Shown here in pieces: positions 923 to 32,305 of a stretch of 32,349 nt of DNA. The position numbers were made by a program, and so were the translations under genes. The DNA is taken from IMG/VR virus record IMGVR_UViG_3300001683_000032, positions 1 to 32,349 of that record; one strand, given 5' to 3'. The stretch comes from a virus. Under the pieces are notes generated by a model that did no database searches, had not been told where the DNA came from, and saw nothing but the letters and a program-made list of their open reading frames with translations. Position 1 is the stretch's first letter. Every line of letters begins with the position of its first letter.

Positions 923-926
923 CTAG

Positions 927-7744: not shown

Positions 7745-7749
7745 TATAA

Positions 7750-9642
7750 ATGCCAAAAATGACATACCCATCATCTTTAATTTCCTTTGTAGATGTTCCA
7801 GAAATTGAAGAGATAAACGCAAAATTTTTCTATAATTTTTTTGTACCTGATGAATCAGTAAATGCTAAAGTTGACCCACGAGCCCTCAAAGTTCTAGCGA
7901 GATCAGGCCTGGGTACGTCTTTTAAGGGGATGGACAATGCTGTCTTAGAAGAACTAACAAGACGAGCACCCAGATTCGTTAAGATAACCTGGCGACCGTT
8001 TAAGACAAAATTTGTCCAGACACCTCAAAAAATTAGAGGGATGAGCATTAAAAGAAATATGGGTTTTATTCAAGAAGAAGCCACAGTCTCCAACGGTCGA
8101 TTCACAGGCCTGTCTGTTCAGGACACCGGTGCTGATCAGAAGCTAGCCGCATTTTTAGCGCTCTCGGCCGACATGTCCGAAACAACAAATACTACAGAAG
8201 ACTCTTCGAATAATGATTTAGCCAAAGCTGTGAACGACAGGACTTCTGCTAATGTTTCTCCAGAATTTTTAGCCAATGCAATGAATAGTCAGACAGCTGA
8301 ATCAGACTATATCGATGAAGAAACTAAATCAGTAAGCGACGGATTAAAAGCCTTTACAGCAAAAGACATAGTAGTGAATATGCAGCTAAACAATAAATTC
8401 ATTGGAAAATTAATTCAGTCTGCTGCAAACGATTCGGCAGGAATTTACTCTGATGAAATGTCAGATTTGCTCGATGTTGCCAAGAACATCCAGGGCAAAA
8501 CGATTGGATTGTCAAAACCATCTGCCATGACAGAGGATGAATATGAGATCACAGTTGAACCTTCTAGAGTAAGATTATTTGATGTGGACGTCGAAGCTGA
8601 CACATATGCTAAAGTTGAAGGGTTTATTATTGATAAGTTTGAAAGAAACGACGATGGATCACTGACCAAGTTAAAGGAGATAGTAATAGAAAACGAGGCC
8701 GCAACAACTTATCTCGACACAGAGGTAAAGTATGGTACGATATACATGTACCAGATACGTGCAATAGCTCAGATAGAGTTCCAATCTTTTTCAGATGATT
8801 ATGAAGATATTGTGTCTATTACAACATTTGCTTCATCTAAACCAAGTAGAAAAGCGCCCGTTATTTGTGAAGAAAAAATTCCGCCGACATCACCTGCAGA
8901 CTTTAAGCCTGTTTGGGACTTCACTAGCAACAAGTTGTATTTGATGTGGAATTTCCCTGTAAATCCACAGCGTGATATAAAAAGATTTCAAGTTTTTAGA
9001 CGAAAAGAAATAACTGATCCTTACGAATTGATTGTAATGTTAGATTTTGACGATAGTGAAGTTTTGAGTCTACCTAGAGAAACTGTAGATCCTGAGCGGA
9101 TTATGTTTTCAAAGCAACCAACATGTGCTTTTTGTGATGAAGATTTTACGATGGATTCTGTGTTCATATACACGCTTTGTTCACTTGATGCCAGAAATTA
9201 TACGTCAAATTACGGTTCCCAAATCAAAGTATGGTTTAATAAACAGAAAAATAGATTAGAATCAAAATTGGTTTCTATTGCGGGCGCGCCAAAGTCATAT
9301 CCAAACCTTTATTTGAATGAGGACTTATTTGTAGATACAATTAGAGATTCTAGTCATTCTAGAGTGCATATATATTTTGATCCGGAATACTTAGAAGTAG
9401 CCGGGGTTGAAGGTGATGATCTGGAGCTGCTTCAGACAACACGTAGGGGAAAAGGCGGAAAATATCAATTTCAAATGATAAATTTAGATCACCAGAAAGA
9501 GCAAAAAATTGCTATTTCGATAGATGATATGAGGCCTGTCGGCCGAGATGATGAGCTTTCAGAGCTAGAGAAGATTAGAAGAAATCTTAATAGAAGAAGA
9601 AGAGCATCGCAATTAAATGCAGCAAAACGTCGGAAAAAGTAA
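7750..9642 (+). CDS. Virion protein with two fibronectin-III-like domains
   Basis: A 630-residue protein. Two FN3-like domains are visible, at about residues 263-360 (late strand Y-M-Y-Q-I-R-A) and about 376-495 (strand L-Y-L-M-W-N, then F-Q-V-F-R-R and Y-T-L-C-S-L). The last 30 residues are very basic (R-R-N-L-N-R-R-R-R, then K-R-R-K-K). A C-A-F-C pair sits near residue 460; with only two nearby cysteines it is not a convincing zinc site. GAGGA at 7736-7740 lies 9 bases before the ATG. It is the last gene of the first structural run; the 91-base gap that follows carries a promoter candidate. It resembles the protein at 927 in fold and probably belongs to the same tail or baseplate assembly. 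Confidence 0.77.
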   Translation: MPKMTYPSSLISFVDVPEIEEINAKFFYNFFVPDESVNAKVDPRALKVLARSGLGTSFKGMDNAVLEELTRRAPRFVKITWRPFKTKFVQTPQKIRGMSIKRNMGFIQEEATVSNGRFTGLSVQDTGADQKLAAFLALSADMSETTNTTEDSSNNDLAKAVNDRTSANVSPEFLANAMNSQTAESDYIDEETKSVSDGLKAFTAKDIVVNMQLNNKFIGKLIQSAANDSAGIYSDEMSDLLDVAKNIQGKTIGLSKPSAMTEDEYEITVEPSRVRLFDVDVEADTYAKVEGFIIDKFERNDDGSLTKLKEIVIENEAATTYLDTEVKYGTIYMYQIRAIAQIEFQSFSDDYEDIVSITTFASSKPSRKAPVICEEKIPPTSPADFKPVWDFTSNKLYLMWNFPVNPQRDIKRFQVFRRKEITDPYELIVMLDFDDSEVLSLPRETVDPERIMFSKQPTCAFCDEDFTMDSVFIYTLCSLDARNYTSNYGSQIKVWFNKQKNRLESKLVSIAGAPKSYPNLYLNEDLFVDTIRDSSHSRVHIYFDPEYLEVAGVEGDDLELLQTTRRGKGGKYQFQMINLDHQKEQKIAISIDDMRPVGRDDELSELEKIRRNLNRRRRASQLNAAKRRKK

Positions 9643-9680
9643 GGTAGCACAGTTTTTTGTTAAGTAATAATAATTTAAGT

Positions 9681-9726
9681 TTTACTGGTTTTTTAAGGGA
9701 AATGTATAATTAAATCTAGAGGAGAG
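9681..9726 (+). promoter_or_regulatory. Promoter candidate and strong ribosome-binding site
   Basis: The 91-base gap 9643-9733 holds a perfect TATAAT at 9705-9710, read on as TATAATTAA. A weak TTTACT lies at 9681-9686 with an 18-base spacer. The AT-rich core recurs in other gaps (20850, 27311, 28791), which fits a phage late promoter of the T4 kind (a lone -10-like box) as well as a host sigma-70 promoter. AGAGGAGAG at 9718-9726 is the ribosome-binding site for the gene at 9734. No clear terminator hairpin is seen in the gap. Confidence 0.45.
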
Positions 9727-9733
9727 TTAGAAT

Positions 9734-10429
9734 ATGGGATTTCTTGATCATAGCACAAACAACATTATTCTGGACGCAGTGTTGACTGACACTGGCAGAA
9801 AGTTTCTTTCGAGAAATGATGGTTCATTTTCAATCACTAAGTTTGCATTAGCAGATGATGAGGTTGATTACGGAGTTATTAAACAGTATGGGAGGACAGT
9901 TGGTAAAGAAAAGGTTGAAAAGAACACGCCCGTCTTTGAAGCTTTAACAAATGGAAATCAAGCTTTAAAATATAGACTGGTAAGCTTGTCAAACCCAAAT
10001 ATTATCAGGCTCCCAGGCCTCACGTTAAGCGGCGAGGGCGTGAGCGGCAACGTCATCACGATGGGAAGAAACTCTAATACAACTAGAACAATCACAATCG
10101 CGCAAACGATTGAGAATGAAGATTCAATCGATATTGAGCTTCGAAATCAAGCTTTTATTGTCACATTAAGCAATTTATTCTTGCAGGCGCAAGGACAATC
10201 ACCTGATAACATCGACTTCAATAATATGGCGACATATCTTCTCATTAGAGATGAATCAGTTACATCAATCGGTGGTTCAAAACTGACCTTAACGCTAGAA
10301 GTAAAATCCTTGACAGATAATCATTTTACAATTTATGGAGGATCTAGCTCAAAGATCAGTACGTTTGTTAAAGTCGAAGGTGTCCAAGATGGCGCCGTCT
10401 ATGATTTTGAAGTACAGATAAGTAGTTAG
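9734..10429 (+). CDS. Virion structural protein, paralogue of the gene at 2
   Basis: A 231-residue protein. Its N-terminus (G2-F-L-D5, T8, I12-L-D14, L17-T, G21-R22, then an F-A-L-A-D-D stretch) matches the protein at position 2 in pattern and spacing. The two therefore share a domain of about 45 residues and then diverge. The remainder is polar and beta-rich. It opens a second structural transcription unit behind the promoter candidate at 9705 and has a strong purine-rich ribosome-binding site. It is followed 14 bases later by the gene at 10444. The role is probably tail or baseplate; nothing in the sequence identifies a catalytic activity. Confidence 0.78.
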   Translation: MGFLDHSTNNIILDAVLTDTGRKFLSRNDGSFSITKFALADDEVDYGVIKQYGRTVGKEKVEKNTPVFEALTNGNQALKYRLVSLSNPNIIRLPGLTLSGEGVSGNVITMGRNSNTTRTITIAQTIENEDSIDIELRNQAFIVTLSNLFLQAQGQSPDNIDFNNMATYLLIRDESVTSIGGSKLTLTLEVKSLTDNHFTIYGGSSSKISTFVKVEGVQDGAVYDFEVQISS

Positions 10430-10443
10430 AATAGGAAATTTCA

Positions 10444-11661
10444 ATGGCAACATTTAAAGAATTAACAGCAGCAGATATAAAAACATCTAGATCATTTCTA
10501 AATCAGCTTGTTGACGTGATCGCAGAAGATGTGTCTGGATCAACAACAAGAAGAAAATATCAGGTCTTTGTAACTGGTGGCGTCGGCCCCGGTATTACGT
10601 CTTCATTATTTCAAACTGTCTATGATCAGGACTTTTCTTTACAGACAGCAAATCCAGTATTCGATATGACTGTAGGTCTTTATCATACAGGATCAACTGT
10701 TAATAGCGCGTCTTCAGGTGAAGACTCCTTTGGAAAGAAACTATTTCCATCTCAAACAGTAATGATGAGAGAGAAGATAAATATTTATAAGCAGTATGCA
10801 CAACTTCTTTTAGGAGATGCTACTTCACAATTTGTAGCACCTTTTGGATCTTCTGATACCTCTAACGGAATGGATACAGCAATGTTTATGTCATTTAAAC
10901 GTCTGTTCTCTAGAGATGCTATCAAGCGTGAAACATTTGCGATGAAGTTTTTCCAGAGTGCTTCTGCAGCAAATGATGGAGTAACAACACCGTTCAATCT
11001 AGCAGTGACATCAGAATCTGGGTCAGCAATCTTTACAGATCTTGGATCTTCGACTAATAAGCTGGTTACAATTGGTGGAAACGTTGGTGATGTTGTAGAT
11101 GCTTCAAATACAGCCCGAGGCGTTGGTTTGATGTTTTATGACAGGGGAATAGCTGTCTTTGACATGAATAAAATGACATCAGGTTCCCAGTCGGTCTCAG
11201 GAACTATTGACTGCATGAATGATAATACAACTTATGTAGCAGCAGGTAAGACAATCATTGGCCACCATTCGGAGCAAGCCAACGCTGCATTCATACCTGA
11301 TTTTGTCGCTTCAGCCTCTATTGATAATATATGTGATCACTTATGTTCAACAAGATTTGGTAGTGGATCAAACACATCTATCACGTTCCAGAATATTACA
11401 AATATCAATAGTACTCTAATTTTCTGCAGAGCTTCAGCAGATGAGTTTAACTACTCTTCAAATCCCACATTTGTTGATTCAGACAACGCAGTTGTTGTGA
11501 TCGATGAGGGTCAAGAGGAGACTCAGCGAACTTTCTCTTTCGTGACAACAGTCGGTTTATACGATGCAAATGATAATCTTCTTGCAGCTGCAAAGCTTTC
11601 TAGACCTGTTGAAAAGAATGATGAAAAGGATGTAACATTCAGAGTTCGCTTAGATTTCTAA
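10444..11661 (+). CDS. Virion structural protein with shared C-terminal domain
   Basis: A 405-residue protein rich in Ser, Thr, Gly and Asp, with the mixed beta character of phage surface proteins. Its last 43 residues (363-405) align without gaps to the last 43 residues of the next protein, with 12 identities by eye including a P-V-x-K core and a terminal D-F. The N-terminal part holds a Y-D-Q-D-F segment followed by F-D-M-T-V-G-L-Y, which I associate from memory with virion proteins of marine myoviruses. AGGA at 10433-10436 is a modest ribosome-binding site. The function is probably tail-tip, fibre or baseplate; the exact role is unknown. Confidence 0.77.
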   Translation: MATFKELTAADIKTSRSFLNQLVDVIAEDVSGSTTRRKYQVFVTGGVGPGITSSLFQTVYDQDFSLQTANPVFDMTVGLYHTGSTVNSASSGEDSFGKKLFPSQTVMMREKINIYKQYAQLLLGDATSQFVAPFGSSDTSNGMDTAMFMSFKRLFSRDAIKRETFAMKFFQSASAANDGVTTPFNLAVTSESGSAIFTDLGSSTNKLVTIGGNVGDVVDASNTARGVGLMFYDRGIAVFDMNKMTSGSQSVSGTIDCMNDNTTYVAAGKTIIGHHSEQANAAFIPDFVASASIDNICDHLCSTRFGSGSNTSITFQNITNINSTLIFCRASADEFNYSSNPTFVDSDNAVVVIDEGQEETQRTFSFVTTVGLYDANDNLLAAAKLSRPVEKNDEKDVTFRVRLDF

Positions 11662-11682
11662 ACCTTGCGTAAGGCGTGAAAC

Positions 11683-14600
11683 ATGGCGATTATTAAATTA
11701 GGCCCTGACAATTTTGAATTATTTACTCTTGCGACGCATCCGGTAAGAACTTACACTTCGTCGTCAGCAGGAGTGACAGGCTCTGTTTATGTCTACGCCA
11801 GACGATCTAATTACGAAAAAGATGCGCAATCTTTAGCTGCATTCGATGATACAAAATTACAGGATAACAGCCTCGAAGCGTTGCGATTGGCCAGTATCAA
11901 TGCTGCTAAGAGCCCAACAAGAGCAACTGCTAACATAGTCTTTACAGGAGTTCCGCAAGACGGTGATATAATAACAATTCAGGCGCTCGATGGAACATCA
12001 AAATCATTTGAATTTGATAAGAACAGCAGCCAGTTTTCAGGATCAAGCGCAAGTCAAGTTGATATTTCAAGCGTGACAACAGCAGCTAATTCTGCAGACG
12101 CATTTAACACTGCAATTAAAGATATCGGCTCTTCTTTTGGAATAAAATCCAAGATAGACTCTTCGACAACTGTTGTATTGACACAAAAAACTGGAGGCAG
12201 TACTGGAAATACAACAATCACATCAGCATATCAGCTCACAACCTCAGGAAGTGTAACCAACATGACGGTACCATCTGTCTTTGTGGGTGGCTCTGATGCA
12301 GGTGATCTTAAAAATCCGTTAGAGTTGTATATTTCTGGAGCTCATGCAGAGCCTGTGTCAAGTAGAAAAAAGAAAGCGATGGAGCTTTACAGATTCGAGC
12401 CTTCTTTTAAATACACAAAAGACACGGGAAGAAAAAATGTTATCAAGAACATCGTGATGCCCTATCACAGAGTTTCAAACCCGTGGTCACATTACGCTTT
12501 TACCAATTATCATTCGTTGAATTTCTTCACCGCATCGCACATTCCATCAAACTCAGCGCTAATTTACGACAACTATTTTCCTAGCAATGAAAAGTTTGGC
12601 CCATACACACCTTCTAAGGGTTTTACACTTGATTTTTATGTAAACCCTAGAAGGACGTTGCTTAAACGAACAGATGAGTACAAAGCTGGTTGCATTATGC
12701 ACTTATCTTCTACTTTTGCAGTTTCATTGGTAACCGGATCGAGAAAGGATGAGTATGGTTTTCCCTCCGCGTTTAGAATACTTTTGCAATTATCTCATAG
12801 CGCTGATCGACCGCCGTCAAAAATCAATCTTTCAACAGCAAATAATAAAAGATCTTATCCTCAAGATCTAATCTTTCTTTCAAAAGATAATGTTCTTAAA
12901 AAGAATCATTGGCATCATGTTGCTATTCGATGGGGGAGTTCTGACTTCAATGCAGGCACAGGGTCCATTGTTATCGACGGCACCGATCGCGGATATTTTG
13001 TTGTGCCTTCAAGTAGCATAGCGCCCATTAATAAAACAGGAACAATGCAAGCTAGCGCAAGCTTCACTTTCGGAGGTCTTATACCAGATCAGACTGTTGT
13101 AGCACTAACAGGAACATCAGGTGGTGTCAGGTTGTTTGAATTCGACTCTTCAGCCGCACCAGCACTGATACATGGTATATCTGGTTCGAGACTCCGTCGT
13201 ATTCCAATATACGGTCTCACAACTGGTGCCGAGATTGCATCAAGATTCTCAAATAGAGTTTTAAGGTCAGGATTAAATCTAAGCTGTTCTGTAGCGTCTA
13301 ATGTTGTGACGATCAAACACAAGACTGGGGGAACATCTGGCAATACACTAATAATAACAGGCTCGGGACACTCTCTGAGTACACAAGCCAGCTACTCAGC
13401 CGGTGTCATAACTAATTTAACAGCTTCGATCTTTTCAGGTTCGGGAGCTACTGCTCAAATGTATTTTGATGGAGGCAAAGCTGCAACAACAGCCAGCATA
13501 GCAGACCCTCAATGTCTTTTCATTGGAAATTATTTTGAAGGAAAGAATAATATGACTTCTGGGTCAAATATGATCCAGTTCTTTAACCCTAATGCAAATA
13601 CAAATGAAGGGGTTAGAAGCATTGCATCTGAAAATAATGATCCTGTGAATTTTTCCTTACGTCATCCTTTGAATGCAGAAATTCATAATATAAAGATTTA
13701 TAATGAGTATCGAGGCATGCAACAGATTTTAACATCTTCAATGCAAGGCCCTGAAAATTTTAAAAATCTATTATTTTATGTTCCAGTTTTCTTTGTAAAA
13801 GAATCGCCAAAGAGAAAGTTTCTCTTGACACCATTTCAAACAGACCGCTCGTCAACAGATGATCCATTCAATGTTTCGCTCTCGTTCGGTGTAGGCGGTC
13901 ATTTATTAAATACAGAAAATTACTGTAGAGAATTTGTTCAAAAGTCATATCCAAGATTTTTTAATTTGACCGCGTCAGTGGTCGAAGGAGGCGCACAGGT
14001 TGAGCTGACAATGAATGATTATCTATACGCAACAGGCTCTGTAAGGGCTAGAAATTTATTGGTCCTTCCTTGTGATAACGGATTATTTTATCCAAACTTT
14101 GACTTGTTAAAATCTGGAACTTACACAGAGCGTCCGAAATCAACACACGATATGGGCAAGTTTGTAAATGACTTGGGTGATTTGAATCTATCTTTTGTAT
14201 CACTAAACGAGTTGATTTTAACATCTTCGTTAATTAATTCGCTAACAAAAGAGTCTGGTTCAATAGAAACACAAGTCATTGGTTCGACAGATAATCTGGG
14301 CCAATCGCCAGGCGTAGTTTTAACAATCTTTCAGCGAACTAGAGATAATTCTTCTAATGAAGTTGTCTTCTTTGATATGTCAAACTTATTTTACGGCAAA
14401 CGAATCAAGCCTGGCTCTTTAAGAATGGAAGATCCTGGGTTAACAGGCTCTGTTGATCCAACTGCTACAGGCACTAAGGCTACTTCAGGTCGGGTTCCTA
14501 TGCTGCTACGAGACAATGGTTTTGGGAACATTTATAGAGCAGATGCTCTGACCAAACATGCAACCTGGAGCTCAGTAGGGAATGTATACTATGATGAGGG

Positions 14601-14922
14601 TGTAATTATTGTCAAGTCACCGAACATCCCGCTCTATGGAAAAGATAGACATACGATCGATTTTAAGGGAGAACACGACGTACATGTAATGAAGATAATG
14701 GTTCATTCCCCCGCCGGCCAAATTAATTCGTCGTCAAATATTTCATATACAGATCTTTCAGCATCTTTCATGCGCAACGATCCGTCTAGTAAGTTTGTCT
14801 ATATTACGGGAATCAATTTCCACGATGATAATCTTAATATCATTGCCAAGACAACTTTTGCACAACCTGTTGTAAAACGTGAAGATGATGAGTATTTGTT
14901 TAAAACCAAGATAGATTTTTAG
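11683..14922 (+). CDS. Large LamG-like virion protein, possible fibre or adhesin
   Basis: A 1079-residue protein. A LamG/concanavalin-like jelly-roll fold is suggested by F-T-L-D-F-Y-V-N (near residue 309), W-H-H-V-A-I-R-W (near 410), V-I-D-G and then L-F-I-G-N-Y-F (near 612); such domains often bind sugars. Two copies of another domain of about 120 residues, each with a T-G-G-[ST]-[ST]-G-N-T motif, lie at about 84-205 and 463-590. The second copy interrupts the LamG-like domain. The last 43 residues resemble the end of the preceding protein. The ribosome-binding site AAGG (11671-11674) could pair with CCTT at 11663-11666, but the stem is only 4 base pairs. Surface recognition is an inference from the LamG-like fold. 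Confidence 0.78.
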   Translation: MAIIKLGPDNFELFTLATHPVRTYTSSSAGVTGSVYVYARRSNYEKDAQSLAAFDDTKLQDNSLEALRLASINAAKSPTRATANIVFTGVPQDGDIITIQALDGTSKSFEFDKNSSQFSGSSASQVDISSVTTAANSADAFNTAIKDIGSSFGIKSKIDSSTTVVLTQKTGGSTGNTTITSAYQLTTSGSVTNMTVPSVFVGGSDAGDLKNPLELYISGAHAEPVSSRKKKAMELYRFEPSFKYTKDTGRKNVIKNIVMPYHRVSNPWSHYAFTNYHSLNFFTASHIPSNSALIYDNYFPSNEKFGPYTPSKGFTLDFYVNPRRTLLKRTDEYKAGCIMHLSSTFAVSLVTGSRKDEYGFPSAFRILLQLSHSADRPPSKINLSTANNKRSYPQDLIFLSKDNVLKKNHWHHVAIRWGSSDFNAGTGSIVIDGTDRGYFVVPSSSIAPINKTGTMQASASFTFGGLIPDQTVVALTGTSGGVRLFEFDSSAAPALIHGISGSRLRRIPIYGLTTGAEIASRFSNRVLRSGLNLSCSVASNVVTIKHKTGGTSGNTLIITGSGHSLSTQASYSAGVITNLTASIFSGSGATAQMYFDGGKAATTASIADPQCLFIGNYFEGKNNMTSGSNMIQFFNPNANTNEGVRSIASENNDPVNFSLRHPLNAEIHNIKIYNEYRGMQQILTSSMQGPENFKNLLFYVPVFFVKESPKRKFLLTPFQTDRSSTDDPFNVSLSFGVGGHLLNTENYCREFVQKSYPRFFNLTASVVEGGAQVELTMNDYLYATGSVRARNLLVLPCDNGLFYPNFDLLKSGTYTERPKSTHDMGKFVNDLGDLNLSFVSLNELILTSSLINSLTKESGSIETQVIGSTDNLGQSPGVVLTIFQRTRDNSSNEVVFFDMSNLFYGKRIKPGSLRMEDPGLTGSVDPTATGTKATSGRVPMLLRDNGFGNIYRADALTKHATWSSVGNVYYDEGVIIVKSPNIPLYGKDRHTIDFKGEHDVHVMKIMVHSPAGQINSSSNISYTDLSASFMRNDPSSKFVYITGINFHDDNLNIIAKTTFAQPVVKREDDEYLFKTKIDF

Positions 14923-20879: not shown

Positions 20880-21266
20880 ATGTTAACAATACAAGAGACC
20901 CATGTCTTAGGGCAAATTTTAAATACGACGTTTGGAAAGTCTTCAACTGTATCCGCAGTAGGCTCAATAAAATGCCATCTTTATGGAGTTGAGCCAACCA
21001 AGATGTGTGTTGATTATACTTCAGTTGTTACGTTTGCAAGTGAAGCTAGCATGAGAGAACAGAAAAAAGTTTTTGAAAATGAGTCAACACAAGCAACTAA
21101 TGACAAAATGAAAGCAATAAAGAAAGAGTTTAAAGATACAGCTAGTCGCAGCTTAAAAGCCAAGCTTGTTAATACCGAAGATAGCATTGAGATAATAAAT
21201 GTATCTTCGCATTCTCCAAGAAAGACAGCTTATTATAGACGAAAAACTTTATTTGAAATCGAATAA
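20880..21266 (+). CDS. Conserved hypothetical protein upstream of terminase
   Basis: A 128-residue protein with a beta-rich first half, a charged helical middle (about 56-95, many Lys/Glu) and a C-terminal S-P-R-K-T-A-Y-Y-R-R-K stretch. I recall similar small proteins in T4-related marine phages but know no function. Its position immediately before the large terminase is where the small terminase (gp16) would be expected, but I see no helix-turn-helix or long coiled coil to support that. It has a good GGGAG ribosome-binding site and its own promoter candidate, and is separated by 4 bases from the terminase ATG. Confidence 0.75.
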   Translation: MLTIQETHVLGQILNTTFGKSSTVSAVGSIKCHLYGVEPTKMCVDYTSVVTFASEASMREQKKVFENESTQATNDKMKAIKKEFKDTASRSLKAKLVNTEDSIEIINVSSHSPRKTAYYRRKTLFEIE

Positions 21267-21270
21267 GATT

Positions 21271-22893
21271 ATGCCTCCACAAAAGCGACCAAGTAAAAAG
21301 CATCAAGTGAAGGAAATAGTACGGTGCGGTAAAGATCCAAAGTATTTTTTTAACAAGTACGTCATGATCCAGCATCCCACAAAGGGCCTAATACCATTTC
21401 ACACTTATGATTTTCAAGATAGGTGCATTACAGATTTTATCGATAATAGATTTAATGTTGTTGTCAAAGCGAGGCAGCTAGGGCTCTCAACACTTACAGC
21501 ATCATACGCATCTTGGTTAGCTTTATTCCATAAAGATAAAAATATTTTAATTATTGCAACTAAGCTTGCAGTAGCTCAAAACTTCATTAAAAAAGTTAAA
21601 GTTTTAATAAAGGGTCTGCCCAAGTGGCTTATTTTACCTGAAATAGTAGCTGATAATAAACAATCAATAGAGTTTAGCCATGGATCGTCTATTAAGGCAA
21701 TCCCAACATCTGACGATGCCGGCCGATCAGAAGCATTAACGTTATTAATCGTGGATGAGGCCGCATTTGTTAGAAATTTTGATGAGCTTTGGATGGGACT
21801 GTACTCAACGTTGTCGACAGGCGGTCGCGCAATTATTCTATCCACACCAAATGGTGTAGGAGGACTGTATCACAAACTTTATACAGACGCGCTAGAAAAT
21901 ATCAATGATTTTAATGCAATAACACTACCGTGGGATGTGCACCCAGAGCGTGACCAGGCATGGCTTGATAAAGAAACAAGTAATATGAACCCACGTCAGA
22001 TAGCTCAAGAGCTTAACTGTGATTTTACTTCTTCTGGCGATACATTTCTAACATCTCATGATATTGAATGGGTATCAAATATGATAAAACCACCAGCTTT
22101 TCGTGAGGGCCCCCAAAGAAATGTTTGGGTGTGGAAGCGCCCTCTGAGTGAGCATCAGTACATCGTGTCTGCAGATATTGCTAGAGGTGATGCACGAGAT
22201 TTTTCTGCTTTTCATATTATTGATACAGAAGCCTCTGAGATAGTTGCTGAGTATAAAGGAAAAATTCCACCAGATCGATTCGCTCAAGTATTGTATGACT
22301 GGGGTACACAATACAATAACGCATTATTGATTCCAGAAAATAATTCATTTGGCTATGCAACAATTCTTAAGCTAAAAGAGTTAAAGTATCCCAAACTTTA
22401 CTATAGAAATCGAAAGTCAGTTTATATTGGCACGTATACACCTAATTATGATACTGATAAAGCAGGTTTCGACACTCAGCGAAAATCTAGAAATCAAATA
22501 TTAACAAAACTAGAAGAGATTTTGAGGAATAAAGAAATAAAAATATACTCCAGTCGACTTTACGATGAATTGAAAACTTTTGTTTGGAAACACAGCAAGC
22601 CACAAGCAATGAAAGGTTACAATGATGATTTGATTATGAGCTTAGCAATAGGTGTGTGGTTGTATGATACGTCACCCGATTATAGTAAAGACGCCGCGGA
22701 CTTAAACAAGGCGATGCTTCAAGGTATGAAATTTACTAGAAATCAATATCGAGATAGAAATGTAGGAGGTCACATGACTGATAGAATGAATCCATTTATG
22801 CCGATTTCTATGAATCACAGTGACGTCGACAAGGATGCTGACAAGTCGGTCGGAAATAAGTTACCAGCAAATTTTGACTGGTTGTGGAAGTAA
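21271..22893 (+). CDS. terL: Terminase large subunit (gp17-like)
   Basis: A 540-residue packaging motor that pumps DNA into proheads with ATP and cuts the concatemer. The ATPase domain has a Walker A variant A67-R-Q-L-G-L-S-T74, Walker B L-L-I-V-D162-E163 and coupling motif S191-T-P. The nuclease domain has D302 in S-A-D-I-A-R-G-D, E356 in I-P-E-N-N and D452/D453 in Y-N-D-D-L. I place the start at 21271 (M-P-P-Q-K). An in-frame ATG at 21199 would add 24 residues but lies entirely within the preceding gene, and typical gp17-like proteins begin near here. It is 5 bases from the portal gene. Slightly shorter than T4 gp17 (610 residues). Confidence 0.96.
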   Translation: MPPQKRPSKKHQVKEIVRCGKDPKYFFNKYVMIQHPTKGLIPFHTYDFQDRCITDFIDNRFNVVVKARQLGLSTLTASYASWLALFHKDKNILIIATKLAVAQNFIKKVKVLIKGLPKWLILPEIVADNKQSIEFSHGSSIKAIPTSDDAGRSEALTLLIVDEAAFVRNFDELWMGLYSTLSTGGRAIILSTPNGVGGLYHKLYTDALENINDFNAITLPWDVHPERDQAWLDKETSNMNPRQIAQELNCDFTSSGDTFLTSHDIEWVSNMIKPPAFREGPQRNVWVWKRPLSEHQYIVSADIARGDARDFSAFHIIDTEASEIVAEYKGKIPPDRFAQVLYDWGTQYNNALLIPENNSFGYATILKLKELKYPKLYYRNRKSVYIGTYTPNYDTDKAGFDTQRKSRNQILTKLEEILRNKEIKIYSSRLYDELKTFVWKHSKPQAMKGYNDDLIMSLAIGVWLYDTSPDYSKDAADLNKAMLQGMKFTRNQYRDRNVGGHMTDRMNPFMPISMNHSDVDKDADKSVGNKLPANFDWLWK

Positions 22894-22898
22894 TTTAA

Positions 22899-24932
22899 AT
22901 GGCAGACAGTAACAAGAATCTATTTAAACGGTTAACAAACCTGTTTAGGTCTGGGCCTGCAGTTAAACGTAACGTTTCAAAGTATAAGTCACTATCAAAA
23001 GACACGCCTTTCGATACATTTAGAAAAACACAAGCTGGCGCGTATTCTCATGCAATGAGCGCTTATGGGTCATATGATAGGGCTTCACGGTATGCAGACT
23101 TTTCAGAAATGGAGTATATGCCCGAGATAGCATCAGCATTAGACATATACTCTGAAGAGTCTACATCACCTGATGAGGGCGGAAGAGTTCTCCACATATA
23201 CTCAGAAAACCCTCAGATTCATGATATACTCGAGGAGCTATTTTCTGATGTTTTGAATATTGATTTCAATCTTTCATCATGGGTCCGAACCCTTTGTAAG
23301 TATGGCGATTTCTTTTTGTTCAATGACGTTGACCCGGATACCGGTGTCATTAATGCCTATCCTATTCCTGTCAATGAGATGGAAAGAGAAGAGGGGTTTG
23401 ATCCAGAAGATCCCATGGCAGTAAGATTCAGGTGGGTAACACAGGGTAATCAAATATTAGAAAATTGGCAGATATCACATTTTCGTCTTTTGGGGAATGA
23501 TGCATTTCTCCCATACGGGTCTTCCGTTCTAGAGGCAGCTAGAAGAATATGGAGACAGTTGATATTGATCGAAGACGCAATGCTAGTGTACAGAGTTATT
23601 AGATCACCTGAACGTCGGGTTTTTTATATTGATGTTGGAAACGTACCGCCAGAAGAAGTTCCAAATTATATGGAGCAAGTTCAAACAACATTAAAGAGAA
23701 GTCAAGTAGTCGACAAGAAAACTGGCAGGGTGGACTTAAGATATAACCCTCTTTCTGTTGACGAGGACTATTTTCTTCCAGTAAGAGGTACAGAAACAGG
23801 GACAAAGATAGACACTTTGGCCGGCGGCACTAATCAAAATGATATCAATGATGTAGAGTACGTTCAAAAGAAACTATTTGCAGCTTTAAAAATACCAAAA
23901 GCATATCTTGGATATGAAGAAGCGCTATCTTCAAAAGCAACGCTTGCTCAAGAAGACATCAGATTTTCTAGATCTATTGCAAGAATTCAACGAACAATTA
24001 TTGCAGAGCTCAATAAAATAGCCATTATAACACTTTATGTGAAAGGTTACGATGGTGATGATCTTATTGACTTTGAATTAAAACTTTCTAATCCGTCGAC
24101 TATTGCCCAACAACAAAAATTAGAGTTAATTCGAACAAGATTTGAAATCGCAGGAACAATGCCAGAGGGAATTGTTGATAAACGGTGGGTCCGAAAAAAT
24201 GTCCTCGGACTTACAGATGAACAAATTCTTGAAATTGAAGAAGGCAGAGAGCTTGATAAAAAACGGGAACTTGAAATTGAATCAATTCAAGCACCGGCAG
24301 CACCAGGCGCCGCGGGCGCCGAAGCCGCGGCTGAACCGGGTGGTGTCTTTGGAGCCCCCGGAGCCGATTTATTCGGTGGAGGCGGTGAAGAAGCAGGCGG
24401 TGAAGAAGCAGCTGCGGAAGAGCCCGCCGGAGAAGAGGGTGGAACGGAGGTGGCAGGTTACTCACCAAATACCTTACCACTACTAATAGCCGGTGATATT
24501 GACGAGCTTGATTTTAAAGAAGTAGACTCAGCAGATGAGCTAGATCTTCTAATTGACGAAGACGACGACGACGACGAAGACGAAGACGGAAATCCTGTGA
24601 AGGCTTCTTCAAGAGTAAAAAAGAAAGACTTGAAAAGAACACCAGCACACTTGCGTCCGCCCATATACGATTTAAGCCCAGACTCTCCAGATGGGCCATA
24701 CGGCCATAAGGGCTCCCGCAGCCCTGGACGAGAACTGGCAAGAATAGGCAGCCTTTCCATGAAAGAGTCAGACATATTTTTTAATAGTTATTTTGACAAA
24801 CAGATCAATCAAACTTCAAAGTTCAACAATGAGATGCGATCTATAATAAAAAACTTACGATCAAAGATAAGTAATAATGGATCCGAATTACTAAATGAAT
24901 CCGACCCGGATAAATCAGATAGTGGAGACTAA
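22899..24932 (+). CDS. 20: Portal protein (gp20-like) with long acidic C-terminal tail
   Basis: A 677-residue portal, the dodecameric ring at one head vertex through which DNA passes and on which the prohead starts to form. The family pattern is clear in residues 1-450: the N-terminal Y-x-x-Y-D-R-A-S-R-Y-A-D segment, a helical P-E-I-A-S-A-L-D-I-Y-S-E block, and a V-Q-K-K-L-F-A-A-L-K-I-P-K-A-Y-L-G block near 325. T4 gp20 is about 524 residues. The excess lies mostly after residue 460: an Ala/Gly/Pro/Glu-rich stretch (about 465-540), an Asp/Glu run (about 553-565) and a helical, charged end. The nucleotides of this tail are much more GC-rich than the flanks. A weak GGAAG lies before the ATG. 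Confidence 0.95.
   Translation: MADSNKNLFKRLTNLFRSGPAVKRNVSKYKSLSKDTPFDTFRKTQAGAYSHAMSAYGSYDRASRYADFSEMEYMPEIASALDIYSEESTSPDEGGRVLHIYSENPQIHDILEELFSDVLNIDFNLSSWVRTLCKYGDFFLFNDVDPDTGVINAYPIPVNEMEREEGFDPEDPMAVRFRWVTQGNQILENWQISHFRLLGNDAFLPYGSSVLEAARRIWRQLILIEDAMLVYRVIRSPERRVFYIDVGNVPPEEVPNYMEQVQTTLKRSQVVDKKTGRVDLRYNPLSVDEDYFLPVRGTETGTKIDTLAGGTNQNDINDVEYVQKKLFAALKIPKAYLGYEEALSSKATLAQEDIRFSRSIARIQRTIIAELNKIAIITLYVKGYDGDDLIDFELKLSNPSTIAQQQKLELIRTRFEIAGTMPEGIVDKRWVRKNVLGLTDEQILEIEEGRELDKKRELEIESIQAPAAPGAAGAEAAAEPGGVFGAPGADLFGGGGEEAGGEEAAAEEPAGEEGGTEVAGYSPNTLPLLIAGDIDELDFKEVDSADELDLLIDEDDDDDEDEDGNPVKASSRVKKKDLKRTPAHLRPPIYDLSPDSPDGPYGHKGSRSPGRELARIGSLSMKESDIFFNSYFDKQINQTSKFNNEMRSIIKNLRSKISNNGSELLNESDPDKSDSGD
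24293..24594 (+). repeat. Low-complexity acidic tail coding segment
   Basis: Within the portal gene. The stretch codes for Ala/Gly/Pro/Glu repeats with G-G-E-E-A-G-G-E-E-A-type units, and then a run of Asp and Glu codons (GAC/GAA). GC content rises sharply against the AT-rich surroundings. It is in frame and free of stops, and is likely disordered in the protein. Confidence 0.7.
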
Positions 24933-24939
24933 GTTCTAA

Positions 24940-25779
24940 ATGGCAAAGAAAACACACAACAAAAAAAGAAATGTAGGCGTAATATATGAAGTTTTAGTTC
25001 GATATATTGCTGAGTGCATAGTCGAAAAGCGTATTGATGAGCGAAGAATTGCATCAAGAATTTTAAAGAAGTACTACGCTAAGGGTACAGAAGTTTTTAA
25101 AGAACACAGGCTTTTCAAGTCACTTGTTGAAACAACTGTAAGCACAGAAACAGTAGCTGCGTCTATTTTATCTGAAGCAAAAAAGGCATCCAAAAGTTTT
25201 AATGAGAAAAAGTTAGATAAAGAAAAATCAAGTCTAATAAGAGAAATAAACTATCAGTTGGGATCAGATTCTATCTATAATATCAGGATTAATGATTACA
25301 CTCTTTATGCTACAATTCAAACATGTTTGAATGAGTGGAAGAAACCTGTTTCTGACAACTTGGTGCTTTTAGCAGAATATGAAAATCATATTATGAATAG
25401 ACTTATTGCTTCAAAAGATGCAACTAATCCTTATTTTGATAAAATGAAAGACGTTGATAACTTTGTTGTCAAACTCATGGCCGAAAAGTTTAATGAAAGA
25501 TACAGCGGAGCACTTGATGAGTCGCAAAGAACATTATTACGATCTTATGTTTTTTCAAACGATCATAAAGACATCGCATTGAAAATGAATGAACTGAAAG
25601 AATTATCTTTGTCACAGCTAAATGAGTATGACACATCAAGTGAGTATGTTATGTTCAAGGTTAATGCAGTACGTCAGAAGATTGCTGAACAAGATTTTGA
25701 TTCTGTAGATGATGGCACAGTTAAGAAAAGTTTGACGTTAATTCAATTGATGAAACAACTGGAGAGTGAAAATGTCTAA
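24940..25779 (+). CDS. Conserved protein between portal and prohead protease
   Basis: A 279-residue, highly charged and probably all-helical protein with a basic start (K-K-T-H-N-K-K-R-N) and Lys/Glu-rich helices throughout. No motif identifies an activity. In T4 the space between genes 20 and 21 holds small prohead-core genes (67, 68), so a prohead core or assembly role is a reasonable guess from position and charge, not from homology. GGAGA at 24924-24928 is a good ribosome-binding site. Its 3' end overlaps the protease gene by 8 bases, so translation of the two is probably coupled. Confidence 0.78.
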   Translation: MAKKTHNKKRNVGVIYEVLVRYIAECIVEKRIDERRIASRILKKYYAKGTEVFKEHRLFKSLVETTVSTETVAASILSEAKKASKSFNEKKLDKEKSSLIREINYQLGSDSIYNIRINDYTLYATIQTCLNEWKKPVSDNLVLLAEYENHIMNRLIASKDATNPYFDKMKDVDNFVVKLMAEKFNERYSGALDESQRTLLRSYVFSNDHKDIALKMNELKELSLSQLNEYDTSSEYVMFKVNAVRQKIAEQDFDSVDDGTVKKSLTLIQLMKQLESENV

Positions 25780-26383
25780 AAAATTCAATGTTCTAAATTC
25801 TTACTCAACGTTTGACTACACACCTGACATGATAACAGAATCCAGAGAAGATAATGATGGAAAGATAGTCTTAAAAGGGATTCTTCAAAAGTCAGAAACA
25901 GTCAATCAAAATGGGCGAATTTATCCTCGACCCATTCTAGAGAGAGAAATTAGAAACTATCAAAAGTTTATACAGGAAAGTAGAGCACTCGGAGAATGCG
26001 ACCATCCAGATTCTTCTGTTGTTGAGCTCAAAAATGTCTCCCACATCATTCGTGAAGCACACATGGAAGGCGACACTGTGCACGGCACAGTTGAGCTGCT
26101 AGATACACCGTGCGGAAAAATACTACAAAGCCTCGTAGAATCAGGGGTAAAGTTGGGAATTTCATCTCGTGGTGTAGGCTCTACAAAACGCCAGGGCGAG
26201 TATCAAGTTGTGCAAGATGACTTTCAACTGATCTGCTGGGATTTTGTAAGTGAGCCCTCTACACCAGGTGCTTTTGTCATGAGAGAAGGAAAAGAATTAA
26301 TTGAAGAATCAGAGTTAGATCGATTCTTTAACAACTCTGATAAAGTTGATAGAATATTTAACGATATATTGGACTGGGAGTAA
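25772..26383 (+). CDS. 21: Prohead protease (gp21-like)
   Basis: A 203-residue serine protease that cleaves scaffold and capsid N-termini during prohead maturation. The family blocks are visible: N-Q-N-G-R-I-Y-P-R near 45-53, E-C-D-H78-P-D-S-S with the catalytic histidine, and L-G-I-S131-S-R-G, which should contain the nucleophilic serine. The length is close to T4 gp21 (212 residues). I chose ATG 25772 over the in-frame GTG at 25766 because GGAG at 25761-25764 is 7 bases from the ATG and too close to the GTG. It overlaps the previous gene by 8 bases, and the next gene follows after 6. Confidence 0.94.
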   Translation: MSKKFNVLNSYSTFDYTPDMITESREDNDGKIVLKGILQKSETVNQNGRIYPRPILEREIRNYQKFIQESRALGECDHPDSSVVELKNVSHIIREAHMEGDTVHGTVELLDTPCGKILQSLVESGVKLGISSRGVGSTKRQGEYQVVQDDFQLICWDFVSEPSTPGAFVMREGKELIEESELDRFFNNSDKVDRIFNDILDWE

Positions 26384-27873: not shown

Positions 27874-28515
27874 ATGGTCCACAATACATTATTGAGAGAG
27901 TATATACGGGCCACAATGTTGAGCTTGCCCGATCCCAGAACAGGGTCGGGCTACGGCTCTACGGGAAAGTCTGCATCCGGCCTAGGGACTCAGTATCAAA
28001 AAAATTCGATGTATCCATACCGCGAGCCCGATATAGAAGATGCTGAGGAAGAAGATCAAGAGGATGAAGAAACCCACCAGGCAATTCAAAATAAAACGTT
28101 AGGTGTGCATCAAACGGCAGACCCACATAAACGAAGAGACTATGGCAACTTTTCAGGTCATTCTGTAAGATTCGATCTTTATCAAGGGCATGAAATACCC
28201 GGTCCGCTTTTAACAGCAGAGACTACAGGCATAACAGGACGGAGCATATCACCTATTCCAAACCTTTATAAAGGACGCCAAGCATCCGGTGCTATGGGTG
28301 GTGCTTCACCGTCAGGTTTAACTACAGGTCAAGCACAGAAAGGCGGTCTGGGATCCAAGCGAAAATTTTCAAGTTCTCAAGCATTACCTCGAGATGAGAA
28401 TATGCCTAGAAAGTTTAAATTGATAGACATACTTTTTGGCTTTATCGACGACGACGAAACGTTGTATTATGATTTTATAGACAATACTGAGGATCAAGTT
28501 GAAGAAGAAATATAA
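27874..28515 (+). CDS. Hypothetical protein upstream of bS21
   Basis: A 213-residue protein. A short N-terminal helix (L-L-R-E-Y-I-R-A-T-M-L) leads into a Gly/Ser-rich region, an acidic patch near 60-70 (D-A-E-E-E-D-Q-E-D-E-E) and a long Gly/Pro/Ser-rich middle. A more hydrophobic C-terminus follows (K-L-I-D-I-L-F-G-F-I-D-D-D-E). No function is recognised. GAGGGA at 27865-27870 precedes the ATG. Its last 17 bases overlap the bS21 gene, and its 3' end carries that gene's ribosome-binding site (GAGGA, 28489-28493), so the two are translationally linked. A prohead-core role is possible. Confidence 0.72.
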   Translation: MVHNTLLREYIRATMLSLPDPRTGSGYGSTGKSASGLGTQYQKNSMYPYREPDIEDAEEEDQEDEETHQAIQNKTLGVHQTADPHKRRDYGNFSGHSVRFDLYQGHEIPGPLLTAETTGITGRSISPIPNLYKGRQASGAMGGASPSGLTTGQAQKGGLGSKRKFSSSQALPRDENMPRKFKLIDILFGFIDDDETLYYDFIDNTEDQVEEEI

Positions 28516-28759
28516 TATATCAGTATCAGAAAATGATTTGCGTTATCATAAAGGTAAAAGAAATAATAAACATATTGATAGCGTTTCTCAAAACGATATC
28601 TTGATACGTCGTTTTCTTAAAAAATGTAAAAAAGAGCGAATCATAAAAGAGTACACGGAAAAGACTTCGTATTATAAATCTAAGGCACAAAAGCGTCGAG
28701 AAAAGCGCTCCCGCGCTATTCGCAGAATGCGCCGCGAAGCAAATTCTAAATCTAAATGA
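28499..28759 (+). CDS. rpsU: Phage-encoded ribosomal protein bS21 homologue
   Basis: An 86-residue, very basic protein. Residues 32-82 follow the bS21 pattern: a first helix I-R-R-F-L-K-K-C-K-K-E with R37-R-F and C43, a turn into I-I-K-E, Y58-Y-K in place of the family's Y-x-K-P, then R-R-E-K-R-S-R-A-I-R-R-M-R-R. Bacterial bS21 (71 residues in E. coli) sits on the 30S subunit beside the anti-Shine-Dalgarno region and helps start translation. The phage copy has about 30 extra N-terminal residues. Start codon TTG is supported by GAGGA 5 bases upstream and by overlap with the previous gene. bS21 is known as the ribosomal protein most often found in viral genomes. Altered initiation on phage mRNA is inferred. 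Confidence 0.82.
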   Translation: MKKKYNISVSENDLRYHKGKRNNKHIDSVSQNDILIRRFLKKCKKERIIKEYTEKTSYYKSKAQKRREKRSRAIRRMRREANSKSK

Positions 28760-28790
28760 TAACTTCTAGGGAATATTTGCTTTGATAGGT

Positions 28791-28799
28791 CATAATTAA
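28791..28799 (+). promoter_or_regulatory. Late-promoter-like box before scaffold gene
   Basis: In the 95-base gap after the bS21 gene, CATAATTAA at 28791-28799 matches the core seen at 9705, 20850 and 27311. It would drive the scaffold and capsid genes. A TTGATA at 28782-28787 is far too close to act as its -35 element. No terminator hairpin is visible between 28760 and 28790. Confidence 0.4.
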
Positions 28800-28819
28800 T
28801 CATAGGTTTTTGCTCAGTT

Positions 28820-28860
28820 AAGGGTGTTATTAAATGTCAGAAGGGTGTTATTAAATGTCA
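28820..28860 (+). repeat. Tandem duplication of ribosome-binding site and start codon
   Basis: A 20-base unit, AAGGGTGTTATTAAATGTCA, occurs at 28820-28839 and again at 28841-28860 with one G between. Each copy carries an AAGGG ribosome-binding site and an ATG followed by TCA. The second ATG (28855) opens the scaffold gene. The first (28834) is in the same frame but meets TAA at 28852-28854. Confidence 0.95.
28834..28854 (+). CDS. Six-codon leader ORF directly abutting scaffold start
   Basis: ATG at 28834 reads M-S-E-G-C-Y and stops at TAA 28852-28854; the scaffold ATG follows with no gap. It has its own AAGGG ribosome-binding site at 28820-28824 in the duplicated unit. Ribosomes ending here could restart at once on the scaffold gene, or the upstream site could compete with it. 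Whether the peptide is made is unknown; the sequence layout itself is certain. Confidence 0.45.
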   Translation: MSEGCY

Positions 28861-30390
28861 AGTTCACTTTATTTAGACGCAATCGCAGAGGCTAAGCAGT
28901 TAAAAGAAGCTGCTGAAGCCAATGCTAAAAAAGCGATAATCGATGCGATGGCGCCACAAATTAGACGCCTTGTTGAAAATGAATTAATGGAAAACTCTAG
29001 TGATGTATCCAAAGAATCAGACTTCTTATCTGAAGTATTTGGTCTAACACAGACTGATATTGATCAGGAAGCGTTTGAGATCGATGAAAACTTACTTGAG
29101 ACACTTTCCACTTCAAATGCTCCTCTTTTAGAAAGAAATGTAACTTTAAGCTTTATTAAAATAGCAAAAACTTTTCAAGAGTCAGCTGTTCTTTATAACA
29201 CACTTAATGATAAAGATGAAAAAACATATCAAAAATTTGAAACAATTGCTTCTAATTTATTAGATGAGGCAAAAACTTTACGTGACGATTTAATACGTAT
29301 AGTTGAAGGTGAAGGATCAGCAGACGCTGTCTCTTCTCTAGTTGATAAACTTAACACAGTAATTAAGGAGACGGAAAAGATGTCAACACGCTCGAAAGAT
29401 GAAGTTCTTTATGAATTAGATCTCAGTGAGCTTAATCTCTTCGAGGAAGAAGGAGATGACGAGCTAGATCTAGATGTCGATGCACCTGCAGATGATGAAG
29501 GTGCTGAAGACGAAGAAGGTGGGGACGATGAAGCCCTCGATGATGAAGATATAGGAGACGAAGAAGGCGAAGATGATGTTCAACTTGAACTTGATCCCGA
29601 GTCTGCAGAAGCTCTCCGCGCCGCTTTGGTAGCTGCACTCGAAGGCGAGGAAGGCGAAGAAGACGAAGAAGGTGAGGAAGGCGAGGAATTCGAAGAGGGT
29701 GAGCTTGGCGTTGAAGCTGCTTATGAAAGTGATACTCAAGCACGTGATGAGTGGATTGAGATCGATGAAGGAATGCTTCGTCGCGAGATCGCTGCCATGC
29801 GCAAACTTCGTGAAGCTCCTGACTTCTTAAAGACCAAGGGAATCGCTAAAGACATGGCAGACAGCTGGGGCGGCAAAGGCTCCGGCAAGTCTGGTGATGA
29901 TTTCGGCGGTGGGAAGAGAGGAAAAGATCCTCTTGCCATGACCGATAAAGATTTAAACGTACATACGGAAAACCGTAAATTAAGAAAAGTTGCTAAAAGT
30001 GAGTTACGCAAGAATCGTAATCTCAAAGGCAAGCTATCTGAAGCGATGGGCGCAGTGTCCGAGCTACAGACTCAGTTGAAAGAGATGAATCTCTTCAATG
30101 CGAAGCTGCTCTATGCTAATAAACTTCTACAGAATAAGAATATGTCGACTCGACAAATGAGATCGATCGTTGAAGCTCTGGATAATGCAAGAAGTTTGAG
30201 AGAAGTTAAGCTGCTATTCAAGACAATGACAGAGTCTCTCTCGTCTAAAAAGACGGGCGGTTCTTTGACAGAGTCAACTGTAAGAAGAGCCGTCGGCTCT
30301 TCATCACGTCCGACACGCTCAGCTTCAGCTGACAATTCTCATCCTGAGATTGATCGCTGGGCTACGCTAGCCGGACTTAAAGTGAATTAA
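28855..30390 (+). CDS. 22: Prohead core / scaffolding protein (gp22-like)
   Basis: A 511-residue, very acidic protein expected to form the inner core around which the capsid assembles, then be degraded by the protease. The N-terminal 190 residues are helical and charged. Residues about 195-285 are an Asp/Glu/Gly repeat. A basic, Gly-rich segment lies near 340-360. A C-terminal helical block (about 405-465) contains N-A-K-L-L-Y-A-N-K-L-L-Q-N-K and I-V-E-A-L-D-N-A-R-S-L-R-E-V-K, the pattern I associate with gp22-type cores. It is larger than T4 gp22 (about 270 residues), mainly because of the acidic insert. It is preceded by the duplicated start region and followed by the capsid gene. Codon use shifts toward that of the capsid gene after about 29750. 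Confidence 0.82.
   Translation: MSSSLYLDAIAEAKQLKEAAEANAKKAIIDAMAPQIRRLVENELMENSSDVSKESDFLSEVFGLTQTDIDQEAFEIDENLLETLSTSNAPLLERNVTLSFIKIAKTFQESAVLYNTLNDKDEKTYQKFETIASNLLDEAKTLRDDLIRIVEGEGSADAVSSLVDKLNTVIKETEKMSTRSKDEVLYELDLSELNLFEEEGDDELDLDVDAPADDEGAEDEEGGDDEALDDEDIGDEEGEDDVQLELDPESAEALRAALVAALEGEEGEEDEEGEEGEEFEEGELGVEAAYESDTQARDEWIEIDEGMLRREIAAMRKLREAPDFLKTKGIAKDMADSWGGKGSGKSGDDFGGGKRGKDPLAMTDKDLNVHTENRKLRKVAKSELRKNRNLKGKLSEAMGAVSELQTQLKEMNLFNAKLLYANKLLQNKNMSTRQMRSIVEALDNARSLREVKLLFKTMTESLSSKKTGGSLTESTVRRAVGSSSRPTRSASADNSHPEIDRWATLAGLKVN
29440..29706 (+). repeat. Asp/Glu/Gly low-complexity segment of scaffold
   Basis: GAA/GAT/GGC-type codons repeat irregularly (units such as E-E-G-E-E-D and E-G-E-E). 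The protein segment is extremely acidic. Such sequence is prone to length change by slippage and creates long meaningless frames on the opposite strand. Confidence 0.8.
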
Positions 30391-30418: not shown

Positions 30419-32305
30419 ATGAGCAAATTCACATTAGAGCAGCTCACCGAAGATATCCGTTCACGCCATATGGGCGCTGAGGGAAATCGCCTTACAGAGA
30501 AGTGGAACAGAACTGGACTTCTGCGTGGACTTGACGGTGTACACCGTGAAAACATGTCTATGCTTTTAGAAAACCAGGCTGCACAGCTTCTTCGTGAGAC
30601 CAACTCCCTTTCAACAGGTGGTGGTGCTCTTTCAACATCAAACGATATTCGTGGTTTTACGAATATTGCTTTTCCAATCGTTCGTCGCGTGTTCGGAGGC
30701 TTAGTTGCCAACGAACTTGTTTCAATCCAGCCAATGAGCCTTCCTTCCGGACTGCTCTTCTATCTTGACTACACCTACGGCACAACCGTTGGTGGTGACT
30801 ATGGTCCCAACGGTAGTAAGATGGGTGGACGAAGTTCAACAGACTCCACGTACGCAGCTGGTCAGTCAATCTACAATAACCCCCGCGGTAAGGGTGTCCG
30901 TTCAGGATCACTTGCAGCTGGTGGTATGTATGATCTTGGCGGTATCGGTTACTCACGTGTACACAGTGGTTCTTCACTCCCTATTATGAACGCATTTGGC
31001 GCCTGGGGTGGATCAGCAGGTACTACCTGGACAGCTTCACATACAGTTGCTGCACTAACAGACTTCTCAGGTTCTAACGCCAAGTATCTTGGATTTGATC
31101 CTCAGGTTCGACGTTCAGTTGATGACGCTGATCTTGACGTAGCATTCTGTATGATCCAGACAGGTCAGCTTTCTGGTTCGGATCTTTCTATGCTTAACCA
31201 GATTTCCATTACAGACTTCGGTACTGCTGGTGGCGTCTCGGCATGGGGTGAGAAGTTCCAGGCAGGTAATGGTGTTCTTAATCTCCGACGTGCAACACGT
31301 CGTGGTGACTGGGCATCTTCCAAATGGACAGACGATCCGATGGGTGGAACACACGTTCTTTTCGCTCTTGGTCTAACCAATGGTGGAGCAGTTCCTTCTG
31401 GGATAACTGATATATCATGGGTCAAGGGTCCGTCACTTAGTGCAAACGCTGATCAAGGTGATACAATTACTATTCCGGCTTTCGAGTCTGACTTTGGAAC
31501 AGGTACTCCTTCTCCGTTGATCCCTGAGATCGATATTAAGATTGAGTCCATCGCAGTTACGGCAGCTACTCGTAAGCTCCGTGCTCGTTGGTCACCAGAG
31601 CTCGCTCAGGACCTGAACGCTTACCACAGCATGGATGCTGAGGTTGAGCTTACCCAGATCCTTTCCGAACAGATTGCTCTTGAGCTTGATCGTGAGATCC
31701 TTAACGACCTCCTTACAGAGGCTAACGGTGCTAACCTTTACTGGTCACGTGCTCCCGGCAAGTTCCTTGATAAGGAATCCGGCGCAGAGGTTGATCTTTC
31801 AAGCACCCTTTCGGCAGGACCCGCCTTCACAGGTACAGTCCGCGAGTGGTACGAGACATTGACTGAGACAATTATCGATGTCGCAAATACCATTCACCGT
31901 AAGACCCTCCGCGGTTCCGCTAACTTCATCGTTGTCGGTCCTGATGTTGCAACCATTCTTGAGTCTTCCGTGCTTTATAAGCCGAACTACACTCTCGATG
32001 GTTCAGGTCAGGTTGCCTCTCCGATGAGTCTTGGAGCTGAGAAGGTTGGTTCTCTGAGCAATCGTTTCACAGTCTATAAGGACCCCTACTTCCCACGCAA
32101 CAAGATTCTTGTTGGGTACAAGGGCGGTAGCTACCTTGAGACTGGTTACGTATACGCTCCGTATGTACCGCTTATCGTCACTCCGACGATCTTCGCGCCA
32201 GAGGATTTCACACCCCGCAAGGGCGTGATGACTCGCTACGGCAAGAAGATGGTTCGTTCTGACTTCTATGGTACAGTAACCGTTGTGGATCTCCATATTA
32301 TCTAA
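30419..32305 (+). CDS. 23: Major capsid protein (gp23-like)
   Basis: A 628-residue shell protein of the HK97-fold, T4 gp23 type. The N-terminal region (L-L-E-N-Q-A-A-Q-L-L-R-E) is helical and probably removed on maturation: L58-R-E60 before T61 fits the T4 protease rule (Leu/Ile-x-Glu), near the known T4 cut after residue 65. The following block (F-P-I-V-R-R-V-F-G-G-L-V-A-N-E-L-V-S-I-Q-P-M) and the late Y-K-G-G-S-Y-L-E-T-G-Y-V-Y-A-P-Y-V-P-L block are hallmarks of gp23-type proteins. It is about 100 residues longer than T4 gp23 (521), consistent with an insertion around residues 120-300. Arginine codons are mostly CGT/CGC, unlike the AGA-rich neighbours, as expected for the most abundant phage protein. 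Confidence 0.96.
   Translation: MSKFTLEQLTEDIRSRHMGAEGNRLTEKWNRTGLLRGLDGVHRENMSMLLENQAAQLLRETNSLSTGGGALSTSNDIRGFTNIAFPIVRRVFGGLVANELVSIQPMSLPSGLLFYLDYTYGTTVGGDYGPNGSKMGGRSSTDSTYAAGQSIYNNPRGKGVRSGSLAAGGMYDLGGIGYSRVHSGSSLPIMNAFGAWGGSAGTTWTASHTVAALTDFSGSNAKYLGFDPQVRRSVDDADLDVAFCMIQTGQLSGSDLSMLNQISITDFGTAGGVSAWGEKFQAGNGVLNLRRATRRGDWASSKWTDDPMGGTHVLFALGLTNGGAVPSGITDISWVKGPSLSANADQGDTITIPAFESDFGTGTPSPLIPEIDIKIESIAVTAATRKLRARWSPELAQDLNAYHSMDAEVELTQILSEQIALELDREILNDLLTEANGANLYWSRAPGKFLDKESGAEVDLSSTLSAGPAFTGTVREWYETLTETIIDVANTIHRKTLRGSANFIVVGPDVATILESSVLYKPNYTLDGSGQVASPMSLGAEKVGSLSNRFTVYKDPYFPRNKILVGYKGGSYLETGYVYAPYVPLIVTPTIFAPEDFTPRKGVMTRYGKKMVRSDFYGTVTVVDLHII

Follow-up and report, generated by a model that had tools for sequence, protein, structure and literature searches.

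The stretch of DNA analysed here, hereafter the window, comprises 32,349 nucleotides of a 46,931-base virus record (IMGVR_UViG_3300001683_000032), whose other 14.6 kb were also read (as L006), and contains homologues of gp17, gp20, gp21 and gp23 in a T4-like order, all on the + strand. These correspond to a T4-type (gp17) terminase large subunit (21199–22893; Pfam Terminase_6N, 2e-14), a portal protein of the gp20 family (22899–24932; Pfam Portal_T4, 2.9e-77), a gp21-like prohead maturation protease (25766–26383; phrog_207, 3.2e-52), in which an ATG at 25772 is preceded by a Shine-Dalgarno (SD) site, and a major capsid protein of the gp23 family (30419–32305; Pfam Gp23, 2.7e-75). Directly before gp23, at the gp22 position, is a probable prohead scaffold gene (28855–30390, + strand) whose acidic product has many [LIF]xE protease-type motifs, and which is homologous to the gene preceding gp23 in phage Mel-JY01 and the immuto phages. 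The nearest isolates by capsid sequence are Mel-JY01, immuto and RM378, and these genes and their order mark the virus as a T4-like, probably Far-T4-type, phage. Between the protease and scaffold genes lies a small gene encoding a protein like ribosomal protein bS21, so that it lies between head genes, as the initial annotation described; four open reading frames (ORFs) without assigned families separate it from the protease gene. Elsewhere in the window, positions 2–14922 (+ strand) are occupied by seven large ORFs of 231–1,426 aa, six of which have no PHROGs match; the 1,426-aa ORF, searched against Pfam alone, has no match there. The products are large, unassigned proteins belonging to this phage lineage. 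No tRNA genes were found, and a search for the T4 late promoter TATAAATA gave one match, which is the chance level.

The bS21-like gene (28499–28759, + strand) encodes 86 residues from a TTG start codon, with the SD sequence GAGG (28489–28492, + strand) located six bases before it. Its first 17 bases (28499–28515) overlap the end of the upstream neighbour on the same strand (27874–28515), a 213-aa ORF for which no family was found. The start codon and overlap are as initially annotated, and both of these, together with the GAGG site, are conserved in the related contigs L004 and L005, the overlap being of equal length in all three. The protein is identical in contigs L002 and L003, 86% identical in L004 and 68–72% identical in L005. 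Comparison of the window and L004 genes shows 56 identical codons, 18 with synonymous and 12 with non-synonymous changes (dN 0.072, dS 0.72), and by this measure the gene is under purifying selection.

The intergenic gap between the bS21-like and scaffold genes (28760–28854) is nearly unchanged in L004, and L005 too conserves it well, the sequence GTCATAATTAATCATAGG included. At 28820–28860 in the window, approximately 21 bases over the scaffold start (GGGTGTTATTAAATGTCA) are tandemly duplicated, where L004 and L005 have a single copy; the duplication yields an upstream ATG opening a short frame (MSEGCY) followed by a stop codon. The + strand of the record has five copies of the sequence ATAATTAA, four of them no more than 110 bases ahead of a gene start, and the sequence may be a phage promoter, although this is a post hoc observation on small numbers.

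Several independent comparisons identify the small protein as a bS21. Pfam PF01165 (Ribosomal_S21) matches residues 35–78 with E=1.1e-5 and 25.4 bits, and the NCBIfam model TIGR00030 matches with E=2e-5 and 24.3 bits; both matches are significant yet lie below the curated cut-offs of 27 and 28.95 bits, which are annotation thresholds and not biological features, and which the proteins at the same position in related phages do pass. Since Lys and Arg make up 36% of the protein, composition was controlled with shuffled sequences. A profile of 27 viral relatives, from which the window's own clade was excluded, scores the window protein at 47.4 bits, against 8.6 bits for the best of 5,000 composition-preserving shuffles. 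With a single E. coli bS21 as query the score is 18.2 bits, the best shuffle reaching 13.4. When a profile of 14 viral homologues was compared with the PDB it matched 28 distinct sequences, all of them bS21 (best 1.5e-8), and a phmmer search of the PDB with the window protein itself returned almost exclusively bS21 chains (E 0.001–0.1). No family was assigned in PHROGs, and a tblastn search of 50,697 phage records was without a match, the protein being too divergent for such a search.

The core of the protein (residues 33–79; 28595–28735, + strand) consists of helix 1 with the sequence RRFLKKCKK, the aromatic pair in YYK, and a basic helix 2, and aligns with helices 1 and 2 of the cellular bS21 proteins of E. 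coli and Acinetobacter (RpsU). The hallmarks retained are the RRF triplet, the helix-1 Cys, the aromatic residue before Lys and the basic second helix; the KP[ST] motif that follows the aromatic residue is absent, the sequence reading YYKSKAQ. AlphaFold2 models two long helices (31–56 and 62–85; mean pLDDT 74.9, pTM 0.33) with a low-confidence N-terminal third, a predicted fold that is compatible with bS21 without being diagnostic of it, and Foldseek searches of the model against the PDB and BFVD gave no meaningful match. Neither outcome that would have spoken against the initial annotation was observed, as the S21 profile matches significantly and two long helices are modelled. Collectively, these comparisons confirm the ORF, at the level of sequence, as a genuine, divergent viral bS21 gene within a head-assembly cluster. 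An alternative is that an ancestral bS21 has given up its ribosomal function and now serves in the prohead or binds nucleic acid, which would fit the missing KPS motif, the additional basic segment, the sub-threshold family scores and the location among head genes. We regard this as very unlikely, given that the core helices and hallmark residues are kept and that the corresponding genes of related phages encode canonical bS21 proteins with KPS, scoring up to 65 bits.

The N-terminal segment (residues 1–32; 28499–28594, + strand) is basic, varies in length among relatives, and is predicted with low confidence. In alignments with E. coli-type bS21 chains, residue 12 of those chains pairs with residue 32 of the window protein, so the excess is about 20 residues and not the approximately 30 first proposed. 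To judge from sequence patterns among relatives, these extra residues may have been inserted after the first strand and ahead of helix 1, as opposed to forming a tail; the MAFFT alignment does not decide between the two. Three loci with similar capsids (L038, L081 and L100) encode a short strand near the start (such as YNFSV or FNFQV) and then a loop, differing in length, that leads into helix 1, and several more distant relatives (L011, L013–L016, L018 and L019) have Arg/Asn-rich tails ahead of a normal first strand. The L076 protein has a normal, short N-terminus and a helix 2 close to that of the window protein (TGYHKTKSQKRRDKK compared with TSYYKSKAQKRREKR). The L038, L081 and L100 proteins form a divergent bS21-like subgroup in the same genomic slot, in which FxxKWKxSG and P-V-T-[KR]-G-x-K-x-R-K-K-K replace the YEKPS motif, and score only 20–24 bits against the first viral bS21 profile.

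The position of the gene recurs among related phages. In the loci recovered with a bS21 query containing RFLKKCKK (L004, L005 and L010–L020), which by their selection are uninformative on frequency, bS21 shares a strand with the scaffold and/or capsid genes that follow it, the protease gene precedes it wherever the contig extends far enough, and in most of them the scaffold is the next gene. L021 has the portal and protease genes upstream of bS21 and no capsid match within the stretch examined. Of 59 other loci surveyed from the capsid gene, each with 2.2 kb or more of upstream sequence, 12 (counted by hand) have a bS21-like gene, in each case on the same strand as the capsid gene and 1,150–1,850 bases before it; three further loci have a bS21-like gene slightly farther upstream, beyond the stretch first read. 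At the start of the L126 stretch, approximately 5.9 kb before the capsid gene, is a fragment resembling bS21 (E=0.0017). In the 484-kb uncultured phage LR756508, bS21 directly precedes the scaffold and capsid genes and is on their strand. Flavobacterium phage immuto and Rhodothermus phage RM378 have no Pfam-detectable bS21, and a small ORF following the protease gene in the immuto phages, considered as a candidate, is not bS21. Within this T4-like lineage the presence of bS21 is therefore sporadic and its position recurrent, and because many related phages have no detectable bS21 at this slot the gene is not essential to the lineage.

The closest parallel in a cultivated phage is Microcystis phage Mel-JY01 (PP395634.1), whose annotated RpsU (WWT39311.1) is encoded, as in the window, between the protease and scaffold/capsid genes on the same strand. 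The two phages share only 35–45% identity in their capsid and terminase proteins, and the Mel-JY01 RpsU differs in being 75 aa long, with a canonical KPS motif and a Pfam score of 45 bits. Given a slot that recurs, is sporadically filled and is annotated in a cultivated phage, the initial emphasis on the placement as special is less well supported. Viral bS21 genes are themselves already known, as the initial annotation acknowledged (PMC9723584, PMC6375957), and the arrangement of a phage bS21 beside head genes is likewise not new: Chen et al. 2022 (PMC9723584) described phages in which bS21 neighbours terminase, protease, portal and capsid genes, and suggested the same role in late translation, with bS21 and structural genes co-expressed in late infection of other phages. 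Those phages resemble the window in having bS21 inside the terminase/portal/protease/capsid block, but are ~300 kb in length with predicted Bacteroidetes hosts, encode bS21 on the opposite strand, and have an aromatic residue at the position of Tyr54 in Flavobacterium johnsoniae bS21 where the window has Ile. Roux et al. 2015 (PMC4360716), in their survey of Far-T4 phages, do not mention S21 in the main text. Pelagibacter phage HTVC008M, a T4-like myovirus, also encodes a bS21 (AGE60443; PMC6375957, PMC7029224), which at 67 aa is shorter than that of the window and is of a type reported in pelagimyophages to lie outside any specific gene cluster.

In many relatives bS21 is flanked by prohead genes, with the scaffold gene following it immediately, and this location allows another explanation, in which the protein is assembled into the head along with scaffold and internal proteins, is injected with the DNA, and acts on ribosomes from the start of infection. 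Chen et al. also raised this possibility (PMC9723584). We consider it highly improbable, as the bS21 protein contains none of the gp21-type [LIF]xE cleavage motifs, compared with 16 in the scaffold.

The phage genes make extensive use of SD sites, which precede 20 of 35 phage gene starts and 51 of 953 other ATGs. A protein acting on SD/anti-SD pairing would therefore affect the phage's own messages, and SD use by phage genes would be predicted were SD-dependent initiation the target. The Bacteroidota-type bS21 that sequesters the anti-SD has as a trait an aromatic residue at position Tyr54 (checked against 7jil), which is absent here; the window, L004 and L005 all have Ile74 at the equivalent place, in an alignment made by eye in which F. 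johnsoniae Lys40 corresponds to Lys60. Together, SD use and the non-aromatic residue argue against a Bacteroidota host with a sequestered anti-SD. Assignment of a host through contigs of metagenome-assembled genomes with related capsid genes was rejected because their labels are inconsistent (Halobacteriovorax, Methylococcaceae, Flavobacteriales and others).

A role for the protein in ribosome loading and late translation is plausible on this analysis, and we think it likely that the phage bS21 enters host 30S subunits and biases late translation toward abundant phage messages. The shared strand and 17-base overlap make co-transcription with the head genes plausible, and bS21 would thus be produced together with the head proteins. 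The core binds 16S rRNA in known bS21 proteins, and its retention makes incorporation into the 30S likely, such that the phage protein would replace host bS21 through the conserved two-helix core. Once there it would alter initiation, with the extended basic N-terminal segment perhaps placed near the mRNA/anti-SD region, and abundant late phage messages would be translated well. Homology, selection, synteny and the use of SD sites by phage genes are what the analysis shows; that bS21 is co-expressed with the head genes, enters the ribosome, alters which messages are chosen and acts there through its N-terminal segment is inferred. Points against this reading are the loss of KP[ST], the family scores below cut-off, the extra segment, and the sporadic presence of the gene in the lineage.

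The effect on the ribosome could also be inhibition and not promotion, as indicated by Mizuno et al. 2019 (PMC6375957), who found that E. coli ribosomes take up the HTVC008M bS21 and that their in vitro GFP synthesis then falls to ~5% of the control. Accordingly, the phage bS21 might displace that of the host and leave ribosomes poor at translating host messages, while those of the phage persist owing to strong SD sites or other factors; strong AAGGAG sites do precede late genes such as the capsid gene. We view such a shutdown or filtering of host translation as unlikely, since the GFP result comes from a heterologous host and may reflect incompatibility, and SD sites are used at a similar rate by genes of the late region (15 of 25) and by the remainder (5 of 10). 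Less probable again is a more specific proposal, suggested by the basic N-terminal segment and altered motif, that bS21 remodels the mRNA/anti-SD platform to favour late messages, or travels in the virion and does this as soon as infection begins.

The window gene is thus a divergent, well-placed addition to the set of viral bS21 genes, of modest interest for its extra N-terminal segment and for the lineage-wide slot it occupies. Across this T4-like lineage a same-strand bS21 gene repeatedly fills the interval from the protease to the scaffold and capsid genes, a pattern that adds weight to the connection already published between phage bS21 and the synthesis of late structural proteins. As Mel-JY01 is cultivated and has the same arrangement, this function can be tested in the laboratory; in the virus described here, bS21 probably steers host ribosomes while particles are being made.
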